Source of the DNA: Acidobacteriota bacterium
GTDB lineage: Bacteria > Acidobacteriota > Terriglobia > UBA7540
Reading direction: 5' to 3'
DNA: 6,980 nucleotides
Assembly: GCA_003165615.1 (NCBI GenBank)
Contig: PLWR01000717.1
Location: 1,626 to 8,605 of the forward strand
The translations under genes were made by a program, and so were the position numbers. Below the pieces are notes generated by a model that saw only the letters and a program-made list of their open reading frames with translations, did no database searches and had not been told where the DNA came from. Position 1 is the first letter of the stretch, and every line of letters starts with the position of its first letter. This document shows, piece by piece, positions 2,827 through 6,980 of this stretch.

Positions 2827-4287
2827 ATGGCAGCACCTATCATGAGCGACCCCGCAAATCAGCAAGCCACGAATTTCGATGATGCCACGATCACGGTCCT
2901 GGGCTTGGGCCATATTGGGCTGCCCACCGCGCTGGGCTTGGCGGAATTGGGACGGCGCGTTATCGGCGCGGACCACGATGCCAGCAAGGTTGGTCGCATC
3001 CGGTCGGGTGATCCGATTTTCTTCGAACCCGGCCTTGCCGACCTGTTGGCGAAACACCTCCAAAGCGGCCGGTTTCGGCCCGTCGATGATGTGGAAGCGG
3101 CGGTGCGTGACGGTTCCATCATCTTCATCTGTGTCGGAACCCCCCAGAAAGCCAGCGGCCAAGCCGACCTCGGGCAAGTGGAAGCCGTGGCGCGGGTGGT
3201 GGCCCGCAACCTGAACGGCTACAAGCTTATCGTCGAGAAAAGCACCGTCCCGGCCATAACCGCACAGTGGCTGAAGCGCACGATTGTACGCTACAGCTCC
3301 GTGAAGAACCCCGGGGCGGCAGTTGAGCCCACGGCGATGCTTTCTTCCCTCGCATCCGGGGATTTCGACATCGCCTCCAATCCCGAATTCCTGCGCGAAG
3401 GCAAGGCTCTGGAGGATTTCTTCCATCCCGACCGAATCGTGTGCGGGGTGGATTCCGGGCGGGCGCGCGATATCCTGACCAACCTTTATAACCCCTTAAG
3501 AAGGCCCCTAGTGGTTACCGACACAAGTACCGCCGAACTCATCAAGCACGCCGCTAACGCCTTTCTTTCCACAAAGATATCGTTCATCAACATGGTTTCG
3601 GACTTGTGCGACAAGGTAGGGGCGGACGTCACCGCGGTGACGCGCGGCATCGGTCTTGATTCGCGCATTGGCACCCAGTTTCTTGACGCCGGAATCGGCT
3701 ACGGAGGCTACTGCTTCCCCAAGGACCTGCGCGCCTTCATCCATCTGGCGGAAGAGCATGGGGTTGATTTCTCCCTCCTTCAGGAAGTGGAGCGCGTCAA
3801 CCAGCGCCGGGTGGAAGTCTTCCTCCACAAGGTCCACCAGGCTCTGTGGACCCTGCGCGGCAAAACCCTCGGCATTCTGGGATTGGCCTTCAAGGCGGGT
3901 ACCGACGACATCCGGGAGGCGGTTAGCCTCAAGATCATCCAAGCCTTGCTTGACGAAGGAAGCGTCCTCCGCCTATACGATCCGCAAGCCATGCCCAACA
4001 CCCAGGCGGTATTTCCCGCTTCGACGGAAGGCATCACCTACTGTTCATCCGCCCTGGAAGCGGCGCGCGGAGCGCAAGCCCTCCTGCTCCTTACCGAGTG
4101 GGAGGAATTCCGCCAGATCAACCTCCAGCAGGTGCGAGAGGTCATGGAAGTGCCCATTCTGGTGGACGGTAGAAACCTTTACGATCCTGACACCGTGCGC
4201 AAGGCGGGCTTCGAATATGTATCCATGGGGCGCGATGGGGCGCGAACCGCTGCCTCTCGCGCACATCCGGATAAACTTTCTGCCTAG
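2827..4287 (+). CDS. ugd: UDP-glucose 6-dehydrogenase
   Basis: Oxidises UDP-glucose to UDP-glucuronate with two NAD+, in the cytoplasm (EC 1.1.1.22). In the 486-residue frame the N-terminal Rossmann motif is [12 protein letters not shown] (24-35). [10 protein letters not shown] (65-74) follows, then the substrate-binding SNPEFLREG (184-192) and the central [14 protein letters not shown] (237-250) with Lys240 and Asn244. The catalytic Cys296 lies in [12 protein letters not shown] (289-300), and the C-terminal domain has [13 protein letters not shown] (352-364). Most relatives have Ser or Ala before the Cys; here it is Tyr. There is an extra loop of about 20 residues near 155-176. The start may be the ATG at 2827 or 2842; neither has a clear ribosome binding site. 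The C-terminal tail after VSMGR follows a 10-bp tandem duplication at 4225-4244. It is followed 38 bp later by the decarboxylase that uses its product, so the two are probably cotranscribed. A UDP-ManNAc dehydrogenase is less likely given these motifs. Confidence 0.95.
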
Positions 4288-4325
4288 GGCGGTCCATACA
4301 GGATGGGCAGGCATTGGGGCCCTTG

Positions 4326-5369
4326 ATGTCGAATTCCTCCGCAGGCGAGAACCTCCGTCCCCTGACCCTGGTCACCGGCGGAGCGGGTTTCCTAGGTTCC
4401 CACCTTTGCGACCGCCTCTTGGCCGAAGGCCATGAGGTCATCTGCCTCGACAACCTCATTACCGGTCGCCGGGAGAATGTCCAACACCTTCTCGCCCATC
4501 CGCATTTCCGCTTTGTACTTCACGACGTGACCCTTCCCATCGACTTCCCTGCCCTGCTTGCCCAATCCCCTCACCAACCTCCTTCCCCTCCCCGCACGTT
4601 AAGCTACATATTGCACTTTGCGTCACCAGCCAGTCCAAGGGACTACGCTCGGCATCCGATTCACACCCTGAAGGTCGGAGCCCTGGGAACTTACCATGCC
4701 CTGGGGTTGGCAAAGGCCCACGGAAGCGTCTTCCTGCTGGCCTCGACCTCGGAAGTCTACGGCGACCCGGAGGTCAGCCCCCAGCCCGAGAAGTATTGGG
4801 GACACGTCAACCCCATCGGTCCGCGCAGCGTGTATGACGAGGCCAAGCGCTTTGCGGAGGCCATCAGTATGGCCTATCACCGTGAGCACGGCGTCAAGGT
4901 GCGCATCGTCCGGATCTTCAACACCTACGGCCCGCGCATGCGCCTGGAGGATGGGCGCGCCCTGCCCAATTTCATGGTCCAGGCGCTCGAGGGCAAGCCC
5001 CTGACCGTGTATGGAAAGGGAAGCCAGACCCGCAGCTTGTGTTACGTCAGCGACCTTGTGGAGGGACTTTACCGCCTGCTGATGTCGAACCAAACCGGAC
5101 CGATCAACCTGGGAAACCCGGAAGAGGTTTCCATCCTGCAACTCGCGCATGCGATCATCCGCGCCACGCAAAGCAAGAGTTCCATCGTCTTTGAACCCCT
5201 TCCCGAGGATGACCCGCAGCGCCGCCAACCGGATATCACAGCCGCCCGGGAAAAACTGGGGTGGGAGCCCCACGTCAGTTTGGAGGATGGCTTGGCCAAG
5301 ACCCTGCCCTATTTCCAGTCCTCGCTACAGAACCCCTCACAGCCCACAGAGCCCCGCCGCGCGGATTAG
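4326..5369 (+). CDS. uxs: UDP-glucuronate decarboxylase (UDP-xylose synthase)
   Basis: Converts UDP-glucuronate to UDP-xylose through an NAD+-bound 4-keto intermediate (EC 4.1.1.35). It is an extended short-chain dehydrogenase of 347 residues. It shows the Rossmann motif [10 protein letters not shown] (17-26), LDN (41-43), FASPASP (98-104), and STSEVYGDP (140-148) with Thr141 and Glu143. Tyr170 and Lys174 lie in [10 protein letters not shown], followed by [10 protein letters not shown] (196-205) and DDPQRRQPD (295-303), whose Arg is typical of this family. The spacing Thr-x-Glu, Glu-27-Tyr and Tyr-4-Lys agrees with known UXS enzymes. A proline-rich insertion (about 76-92, SPHQPPSPP) sits where relatives have a short loop, and the last 18 residues are a polar tail. 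I chose the ATG at 4326; a TTG at 4314 is in frame but less likely. GGGG at 4316-4319 is a weak binding site. A plain 4,6-dehydratase or 4-epimerase is less likely because of the TSE and DDPQRR motifs. Confidence 0.94.
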
Positions 5370-5378
5370 CCGGATTTC

Positions 5379-6071
5379 TCACCACGTGCCTGGAAGGGGG
5401 GAGCCACGATTTCCGCGGTTCCCCAATGCTTCCCCGGGTGGTCCGAAGTAGCGGTAATGCCCGGTGATTTTCCAGTTGAACAAAACATCTTCCATTCGGG
5501 GACCTTGGCCGATGTTGTGGACCATCATGTAGCGTCCGCTGGCCGCCGATTTCTGGTCCACCACAATCCCGATGTGCGGCACATTCCCTCCCAGGTCCCA
5601 CGTGACTAAATCGCCCGGAGCGTAATCTTCCCCCCGGCCCGTAATCTTCAGCATTTCTCCATGGCGCGAGAAAAACACCATCAGGTTGGGCACGCGCCGG
5701 TGATCGATGTTCGCATCCGGACGTCCAAGTCGCCACGTTCGCAGATTTGGGTAAGCGGAAAAATTGCGCATCATATCTTCGTGGACTTCCTTTTGTAGAT
5801 CCACTCCGACGGCGCGGTAGGCGCGAATCACCTCGTCCGTACAGACCCCCGTGCCGGCAGGAACGTCTCCACCCGGATACGGAATCCTGACGTAGGCCGG
5901 ATCGTACCGCACGGAGTGATGCGTCCGTTCGATCGCTGCCGCCACCAGCCGTTTCAGGAATTCTTGGCGGACAATCGAAGGAACTGTCCTGACCTGGTCG
6001 GCGGCGAGAACTGCTGCGAGCATATTGGCCAGGGCAACCGCCGCGACAAACCTTGGCCGATCGATGGGCAT
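5379..6071 (-). CDS. DUF1287 family secreted protein (NlpC/P60-like fold suspected)
   Basis: A 230-residue protein with a signal peptide (RPRFVAAVALANMLAAVLAA), probably exported to the periplasm. I recognise DUF1287 by TGVCTDEVIRAYR, NIDHRRVPNL, PGDLVTW, HIGIVVD and VHNIGQG followed by GHYRY near the end. The Cys and Asp of GVCTDE and the His of PHIGIV are placed like the Cys/His pair of NlpC/P60 cysteine hydrolases, but no substrate is established for this family that I know of; cell-wall or polysaccharide turnover is only a guess. I chose the ATG at 6071-6069; a TTG at 6080 would add three residues. No ribosome binding site is visible for either. Its stop lies nine bases from the stop of the convergent decarboxylase, leaving no room for an ordinary terminator. 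The C-terminus (GNRGNRGSPLPGTW) looks like a non-conserved tail. Confidence 0.85.
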   Translation of the reverse strand: MPIDRPRFVAAVALANMLAAVLAADQVRTVPSIVRQEFLKRLVAAAIERTHHSVRYDPAYVRIPYPGGDVPAGTGVCTDEVIRAYRAVGVDLQKEVHEDMMRNFSAYPNLRTWRLGRPDANIDHRRVPNLMVFFSRHGEMLKITGRGEDYAPGDLVTWDLGGNVPHIGIVVDQKSAASGRYMMVHNIGQGPRMEDVLFNWKITGHYRYFGPPGEALGNRGNRGSPLPGTW

Positions 6072-6098
6072 GAGCGGCAAGTTAGCATGTTTCGTAGG

Positions 6099-6252: not shown

Positions 6253-6753
6253 TCAGGGTTTGGGTGCGGGAACTGTCGGTGCGCCGGTAATCTTTGAATC
6301 CACGCGGAATTTGCGGTAGTCACTGAATGTGGAAACGACATTAAACAATCTGTGGATGAAGAGCACGCGGGCGTTCAGATGAATTTCAACATAGGACCCC
6401 TCACTCAGGGGTTTGCCATTTTTGCTCACCAAACGCTCAATGAGCCAGGGGCCAATAAAGTGTTCCTCGTATTCCTTAGTCTCCGTAGATTTCACCTTGC
6501 CTTGAGAGTCAAACTCCTGATCTTTGCGGCGCGCGATGTAGTCCTTTCGGGCGGCTTCAATTTGTTTCTGGTTTTCCCCTATGGTCTTCATGAGCGCGGC
6601 GGGATCGGGCGGAACGGGGGATTCAATCGCAGGCCCCGGGTTTGATGACTGGCTCTCCGCGCAAAACCCTGATGCTCCTGCGAGCACCAGGAGCAAGGTA
6701 AATGGAGGAACGAGGATGCGCTTGGGGCGGGACTGCAACACTCTGCAGTTCAA
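6253..6753 (-). CDS. Secreted protein of an Acidobacteria-type family, apparently internally deleted
   Basis: The frame encodes 166 residues: a signal peptide (RILVPPFTLLLVLAGASGFCA), a Pro/Ser-rich linker to about 50, and a charged helical segment (about 52-95, MKTIGENQKQIEAARKDYIA). KEYEEHFIGPWLIERLVSKN then leads to GKPLSEG. From residue 120 the sequence is VEIHLNARVLF and STFSDYRKFRVDSKI. From memory, longer acidobacterial proteins of unknown function have these two parts at opposite ends with roughly 130-150 residues between them. The present gene therefore seems to be an in-frame internal deletion near 6395-6402, where ACCCCT/AGGGGT arms form a small hairpin (6396-6412). The start is uncertain: TTG at 6753, GTG at 6741 or TTG at 6738, none with a clear binding site. 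The function is unknown, and the protein may be a non-functional remnant. Confidence 0.65.
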   Translation of the reverse strand: MNCRVLQSRPKRILVPPFTLLLVLAGASGFCAESQSSNPGPAIESPVPPDPAALMKTIGENQKQIEAARKDYIARRKDQEFDSQGKVKSTETKEYEEHFIGPWLIERLVSKNGKPLSEGSYVEIHLNARVLFIHRLFNVVSTFSDYRKFRVDSKITGAPTVPAPKP

Positions 6754-6779
6754 TCGAAAATCGTAAATCGTAAATCGAA
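6752..6779. repeat. Heptamer tandem repeat (AATCGWA type)
   Basis: Four 7-base units read AATCGAA, AATCGTA, AATCGTA and AATCGAA, followed by a partial AATG. It lies between the tRNA fragment and the small secreted protein gene and overlaps the possible TTG start of that gene, which makes the TTG less attractive. Confidence 0.75.
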
Positions 6780-6788
6780 AATGTTATT

Positions 6789-6833
6789 TGGCTCCTCGGC
6801 CAGGACTCGAACCTGGAACCCTTCGGTTAACAG
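6789..6833 (-). other. 3' half of a tRNA-Asn(GUU) gene, probable integration attachment site
   Basis: Read on the minus strand, these 45 bases match tRNA positions 32-76. The anticodon loop CTGTTAA (anticodon GTT at 6831-6829) is followed by the 3' anticodon strand CCGAA, a 5-base variable region GGGTT, and the T stem CCAGG. The T loop TTCGAGT, CCTGG, the acceptor strand CCGAGGA, discriminator G and encoded CCA complete it. The 5' half is absent: the bases before the loop (AGTTATT) cannot pair with CCGAA, no D arm follows, and no TCCTCGG acceptor strand lies to the right. Truncation exactly at the anticodon loop is typical of tyrosine-recombinase integration into tRNA genes, where the displaced 3' part is left at the far end of the element. 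The orientation puts the element to the right of 6833 and the chromosome to the left. Confidence 0.85.
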
Positions 6834-6980
6834 AATAACTCAGCAGGGGTATCTCATTGATTTTGCGGCACGGTTGGCAACCGAAAAGCACGCAAAAGCA
6901 CGTTTGGAACGGTTAAGTTGTACCGGTCTTGTACTCGTTTTGTTATCTGCTAGTATAGTGTCTCATAAATAGCTTTACAG
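6834..6980. other. Unrelated flank beyond the tRNA fragment, possibly the end of an integrated element
   Basis: No recognisable gene. The last 50 bases contain 17 G or C (34%), clearly lower than the coding regions to the left. It contains an inverted repeat CGGTTGGCAACCG (6871-6883) and a direct repeat AAAAGCACG at 6884-6892 and 6894-6902, close to the tRNA junction. Short direct repeats beside a core site resemble the arm-type binding sites of tyrosine integrases. A 63-codon open frame spans the tRNA fragment and this flank but is a by-product of the junction. Confidence 0.45.

Follow-up and report, generated by a model that had tools for sequence, protein, structure and literature searches.

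A tRNA gene that stops exactly at its anticodon loop raises the question of whether the break marks one end of an integrated element and, if so, what kind of element lies beyond it. In the window (the whole stretch of 6,980 nucleotides analysed), such a gene lies close to the right end.

The cut tRNA-Asn gene and its left flank

The minus strand at 6789-6833 reads CTGTTAACCGAAGGGTTCCAGGTTCGAGTCCTGGCCGAGGAGCCA and, by sequence match and ARAGORN, corresponds to the displaced 3' half (positions 32-76) of a tRNA-Asn(GUU), which would represent the attachment (att) core; it runs from the anticodon loop at position 32 through the T-stem and loop to the 3' strand of the acceptor stem and the CCA. ARAGORN found no complete tRNA over the whole window, and an Rfam search of 6500-6980 returned a single match (E 0.97) and no tRNA. 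All 45 bases recur without a mismatch inside an intact tRNA-Asn(GTT) of genome G175 (contig C96, 3786-3860), which ranked first in a search of 399 genomes of a Terriglobia relative's class and whose order and family are meant wherever these ranks are named below. As a sequence comparison, an exact match of this length is not attributable to chance. Before the cut, the window reads ...GAGTTATT and G175 reads ...GAGCATTCGG, so that the 5' half of the gene and the 5' strand of its anticodon stem are absent from the window. The sequence-only reading, which had proposed that positions 32-76 alone are present and that everything 5' of the anticodon loop has been replaced, is thus confirmed on both points. 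Allowing up to 3 mismatches, the 45-mer is present in 34 of the 39 genomes of G175's family. Six places in relatives lack a full tRNA at the 45-mer (G187:C636, G187:C675, G091:C74 at 450-494, G167:C24, G163:C34 and G147:C409), and the remaining ones among the loci examined all lie in intact tRNA-Asn genes. A search of viral contigs for the 45-mer gave no match.

Leftward from the fragment follow an ORF of a family here called A1, a DUF1287 protein, a sugar epimerase, a sugar dehydrogenase, a polysaccharide export protein and a Wzz protein. The A1 ORF (6253-6753, minus strand; homologue search) encodes a hypothetical protein of 166 residues and lies 35 bases from the tRNA fragment; 2 of its 24 homologues carry the name Terriglobia bacterium, and a search of viral contigs for the family found nothing. 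The A1 protein is internally shortened: set against the majority of its homologues of greater length (~250-290 aa), it lacks ~130 middle residues through an in-frame gap between KPLSEG and SYVEIHL, as does P0001. Short AAATCG(T) repeats occupy 6752-6783, between the fragment and the A1 ORF, and overlap the first codon of the latter. Next come the DUF1287 protein (5379-6080, minus strand; domain search), an NAD-dependent sugar epimerase/decarboxylase (4314-5369, plus strand; Pfam Epimerase/GDP_Man_Dehyd), here called UXS, and a member of the UDP-glucose/GDP-mannose dehydrogenase family (UGDH; 2827-4287, plus strand; domain search).

Past the 3' end of the intact tRNA-Asn, the side that corresponds to the window's left flank, G175:C96 carries an integrase-like fragment, a thioredoxin-like ORF (recognised by eye), an A1 homologue, UXS and UGDH, with identities to the window's proteins of 50% for A1, 86% for UXS and 82% for UGDH. 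DUF1287 was not found near the tRNA-Asn in G175, and upstream of this tRNA lies an ORF that by eye resembles a PAS sensor kinase. Additionally, UXS and UGDH adjoin the cut tRNA-Asn of G187:C636, UGDH being the closest. Since A1, UXS and UGDH lie downstream of an intact tRNA-Asn in G175, gene order and similarity indicate that the left side of the window most likely consists of the DNA that normally lies 3' of a host tRNA-Asn locus. The comparison with related genomes that had been called for supplied an intact tRNA-Asn with these neighbours, but not a cleanly empty site, because the integrase-like fragment and about 2.4 kb lie in between. This fragment (ORF 3919-4389) is 46% identical over 137 aa to the integrase of G045 described below, and Pfam did not recognise it as an integrase.

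The attachment arm and its direct repeat

To the right of the cut, 6834-6940 (plus strand) is assigned as the element-side attachment arm, the relatives of which are 75-89% identical (matches below E 1e-10) and lie mostly beside cut tRNAs. The final stretch, 6941-6980 (plus strand), would be the start of the element interior, in which a DNA search recognised nothing, and the window ends 147 bases past the junction. When 6834-6980 was used as a DNA query, 29 of the 40 genomes of the order matched at E<=1, many of them by chance, and 17 genomes matched below 1e-10; most strong matches start just past a tRNA-like core. A sequence-only model of 37 arms, run against the 399 genomes of the class, matched 35 genomes at E<=1e-3. 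With the bound set at E<1e-11 it matched 21, all of them among the 40 genomes of the order, from which the arms of the model were themselves drawn. The underlying alignment, A2, omits two chance matches (L080, L081), one arm that is cut off (L108), two diverged arms (L100, L120), the second arm of L094, and L088 and L068, both of which are the G045 arm, hence absent from the model. Among the weaker loci L218-L226, eight of nine follow one shared core, identified from intact copies as tRNA-Met, the exception being L223.

Of 45 arms, the window's included, 35 begin directly after the cut 3' half of a tRNA, and these tRNAs are of many kinds. The cut tRNA was recognised by a T-loop at the expected place, a pattern that 1.7% of random 18-mers also show; a stricter version applied first had recognised 26 of 45, and the looser one then gave the count of 35. 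Among the other ten arms, one follows a tRNA 5' half and the rest at most a short stretch of anticodon stem, indicating that the arm can occur without its tRNA. In G167:C24 the same junction between tRNA-Asn core and arm recurs, with an arm 86% identical over 91 bases. Outside these genomes, the arm gave one 31-base match to phage records (E 0.4, taken as chance), no match to plasmids and, as an exact 24-mer, no match to viral contigs. Indels present in some arms spoke against a protein-coding role, and this reading was abandoned. In G087:C159 (L094, 7815 and 8086) two arms stand 271 bases apart, as if from two nested or successive insertions, and the arms of L102 (G191) and L187 (G171) share the core CTAACCCTTTGAAAATCTA, which is not a tRNA 3' half.

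A repeat scan detected within the arm the direct repeat TTGTAC-CGGTC-TTGTAC (6918-6934, plus strand), 84 nt past the tRNA cut. Repeats of this TTGTAC-N5-TTGTAC type lie at +84 nt in 35 of the 45 arms and at +82 to +86 in 3, and were unrecognised in 7. Both halves have the same sequence in 29 of 38 arms, namely TTGTAC/TTGTAC in 15, TGGTAC/TGGTAC in 13 and TTGGAC/TTGGAC in 1. Such covariation would be expected for two binding sites of one protein, although it is suggestive only, the arms being related to one another. Judged by its sequence and placement, the repeat at 6918-6934 most likely provides the arm-type binding sites of an integrase. As a 98-position profile, the arm marks island ends in draft genomes even where the integrase end falls on another contig.

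Complete relatives and their integrases

Six relatives with both ends on one contig (G045, G142, G200, G118, G178 and G009) share one layout, i.e., the cut copy, the arm, the element, an integrase and an intact tRNA, with the two tRNA copies in the same orientation and forming an exact repeat. In G045:C24 the exact copy of the core lies in an intact tRNA-Ala 196.8 kb away, and exact copies lie in intact tRNA-Met genes at 71.3 kb in G142, 50.3 kb in G200, 45.0 kb in G118 and 37.8 kb in G178; in all five, a tyrosine integrase beside the intact tRNA reads into it. G009:C125 is paired at 6.5 kb, with an integrase, and G111:C151 has its partner tRNA at 45.6 kb with 1 mismatch, an integrase not being found there. 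Finally, G151:C585 holds a 1.26 kb unit at tRNA-Pro(CGG) that contains a DUF5615/DUF433 pair and no integrase, which brings to eight the arms with a partner in an intact tRNA on the same contig. This unit, possibly a non-autonomous element whose DUF5615/DUF433 genes may form a toxin-antitoxin pair, carries TTGTAC or TGGTAC repeats near both ends (L114, 3893-5103). On shorter contigs, most arms are without a partner. Five further genomes hold the two ends on separate contigs, the cut copy with its arm matching over 30 bases an intact tRNA with its integrase (G015 tRNA-Asn, G038 tRNA-Pro(CGG), G099 tRNA-Asp, G191 tRNA-Pro(UGG) and G139 tRNA-Arg(ACG)), and in the last of these it is the 5' half that is displaced. 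A 9.3 kb element in G091:C74 has the same tRNA-Asn core and was set aside, as it has another integrase and no recognisable arm of the window's family.

These relatives also bear on the most serious alternative, namely that most of the element, or else its integrase together with the partner tRNA end, was lost or rearranged after insertion, so that the cut tRNA and arm are a scar. Eleven of the arms examined have at least 30 kb of sequence beyond them, a non-random sample (G045, G200, G142, G178, G118, G111, G009, G195:C450, two in G087:C159 and G191:C607). Three of them, the two neighbouring arms of G087:C159 and the arm of G191:C607, have no partner despite 31-39 kb on the element side, and that of G195:C450 has a decayed core, with its cognate intact tRNA-Pro(CGG) 15.9 kb further on and an integrase not found. 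Together with the arms that have no tRNA half and the lone integrase-like fragment beside the tRNA-Asn of G175, these unpaired, decayed or integrase-less copies imply that the copy in the window could likewise be decayed or non-autonomous. However, the window has an exact core and an undamaged arm and repeat, spaced as in most other arms, and for 7 of the 11 long arms an intact gene for the same tRNA does follow at a distance of 6.5-197 kb, with a tyrosine integrase beside it in 6 of the 7. A scar is therefore a minority reading that we consider unlikely, and a largely complete element probably still lies beyond the border.

The integrase beside the tRNA-Ala of G045 carries a PF00589 domain, and its sequence matches 29 of the 40 genomes of the order at E<=1e-20. 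The integrases at tRNA-Met (G200, G178, G142 and G118) are 61-98% identical to one another and 38-40% identical to that of G045. Thirty integrase loci were scanned, of which 18 encode proteins at least 50% identical to that of G045; 13 of these 18 adjoin a tRNA, and no tRNA was present in the sequence examined around the other 5. The 13 adjoining tRNAs are Ala (2), Asp (2), Pro CGG (1), Pro UGG (3), Asn (1), Arg ACG (3) and Thr (1). For 6 of the 13, an arm with the same 30-nt core exists in the genome (1 on the same contig, 5 on others), and for 7 no matching arm was found in their genome among the arms examined. A direct repeat with a spacing of 4-5 lies between integrase and tRNA at 12 of 22 loci (11 of 13 with close and 1 of 9 with distant integrases), the control rate of this pattern being 0.5%. 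The motif had been widened in spacing and letters after inspection of the sequences and is thus adjusted to the data; when only a spacing of 5 was allowed, the scan picked out G015, G091 and G151 clearly and G175 poorly. The two close loci that were missed, L250 and L262, contain near-copies of the repeat by eye. This shared repeat links the arm in the window to the G045 integrase family. Two integrase loci, L252 (G006:C18) and L253 (G087:C21), are identical over all 3927 bases although their genomes belong to different species, which may reflect a shared contig, mis-binning or very recent transfer.

Integrase subfamilies reportedly prefer one site within the tRNA. At the tRNA-Arg(ACG) loci, the integrase nears the 5' end of the tRNA in 2 of 3 cases (L248, L262). 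In G139 (L098, around 1229) the arm follows the 5' half of tRNA-Arg(ACG), and there, as in G052, it is the 5' end of the intact gene that the integrase nears. We lean towards the view that one Terriglobia integrase lineage has moved among at least 7 tRNA isoacceptors (Ala GGC, Asn GUU, Asp GUC, Pro CGG, Pro UGG, Arg ACG and Thr CGU, its more distant members using Met CAU and Glu UUC), with little change in the spacing of its att arms and repeats, and has flipped to the 5' side in two of the three Arg(ACG) cases. If this is true, the lineage constitutes a natural series on target change by core swap only. The family's sets of integrase, core and arm offer material for studying the evolution of target choice.

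According to a second alternative, the junction lies within a tandem array or is attP-like in its arrangement, in which case another element, and not the host, would have supplied the left side of the window. In 4 of 37 arms (G087:C22, G045:C24, G187:C258 and G143:C437) an integrase ORF, 436 aa long in G045:C24, does read into the core from the 3' side of the tRNA and ends within about 140 bases of the junction; G178 and G366 look alike, and these tRNA-side integrases are of several families. These are read as tandem insertions and could also be unresolved attP sites. In the window, no integrase-like ORF was found left of the junction, and the left neighbours A1, UXS and UGDH lie beside tRNA-Asn in G175, which makes such an arrangement very improbable here. 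Least credible of all is a random truncation or an assembly artefact unrelated to integration, for although the window ends soon after the junction, the same junction of core and arm exists in G167:C24 and is found dozens of times, at this very position, in other tRNAs.

Proposed origin, possible cargo and known systems

We therefore favour, with a probability of roughly 0.92, the reading of the window as host DNA, i.e., the 3' flank of a tRNA-Asn gene, joined to the first 147 bases of an integrated element. That site-specific integration at a tRNA gave rise to an element extending rightward from 6834, as had been predicted, agrees with the host-like left flank, the recurring arm and the layout in relatives, and it can be said with high confidence that the window holds the attR-like border of a genomic island at tRNA-Asn, which may be of the integrative and conjugative element (ICE) type. 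Recombination by a tyrosine integrase borne by the element would have joined an attP core, in sequence the same as the 3' part of tRNA-Asn, to the host gene at its anticodon loop. At the far end, to the right of the window, the copy brought by the element would have made the tRNA-Asn gene complete again, and the original 3' half would have been displaced to 6789-6833. The sequence at 6834-6940 would then be the attP arm retained at this end, with its direct repeat most likely serving as the docking site of the arm-binding domain of the integrase. The cut tRNA, the gene order on the left, the family of arms and the complete layout of the relatives are observed, and the integrase and intact tRNA of this particular element, its size, the function of the repeat and present mobility are inferred.

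The remark that integrated elements often carry defence, resistance or metabolic cargo holds only for some relatives, whose ORFs were called crudely. Among 25 listed of 54 families, the G118 element (41 ORFs) contains coupling-protein, TrbI, VirB8, TrbL, CagX and T2SSE families, as well as an AcrB-type efflux pump, AbiEii and a type ISP restriction enzyme, and its PADLOC matches include HerA, SIR2, AbiE and restriction genes (among 25 listed of 109); the HerA matches may simply be ATPases of the type IV secretion system (T4SS). The G178 and G200 elements (79 ORFs together) contain ParB, TIR and nSTAND1 domains and no T4SS family among 25 listed of 98 families, and LmuA/LmuB, Avs2 and pVip among 25 listed of 41 PADLOC matches. 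Single-protein PADLOC matches do not establish complete defence systems. Given the restriction, Abi and other defence-like genes in some relatives, these islands may move defence genes among these bacteria.

Tycheposons are a further example of tRNA-targeting elements with tyrosine recombinases. The conjugation families of the complete G118 relative, which are those expected of an ICE, resemble that class, whereas G178 and G200, with no T4SS family among those listed, and the 1.26 kb unit of G151, with no integrase, differ from it. The literature found on acidobacterial integrative elements did not seem to describe the island family of the window. A review on archaeal recombinases points out that an anticodon loop of 7 bases, framed by a palindromic stem, corresponds to the core layout that these enzymes use. 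PFGI-1 of Pseudomonas fluorescens Pf-5 (PMC2647930) is flanked by 49-bp repeats that include 45 bp of the 3' end of tRNA-Lys; its site covers the T and anticodon loops and its integrase lies near the intact tRNA, as in the relatives of the window's element, from which it differs in its tRNA and its phylum. The closest counterparts are the tRNA-gene islands surveyed in Islander (Hudson, Lau and Williams, 2014; PMC4383910), which number 3919, 3760 of them with a 3' fragment; its table gives 2083 anticodon-centred sites, 159 islands with a 5' fragment and 125 tandems of two or more. Its hallmarks recur here: a cut tRNA-gene fragment at one end lies in the window, a syntenic site with an intact tRNA in G175:C96, the intact cognate tRNA at the other end in the same orientation in 8 relatives on one contig, and an integrase inside the interval in 6 of these 8 (all except G111 and G151). 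The type of integration is well known, and the arm is that of a family of islands whose targets are many different tRNA genes of related bacteria. Sharing a displaced 3' tRNA fragment, a regenerated tRNA and a tyrosine integrase, the window's family showed no essential difference from Islander-type islands, although some of its tRNA-Arg(ACG) members displace the 5' half instead.
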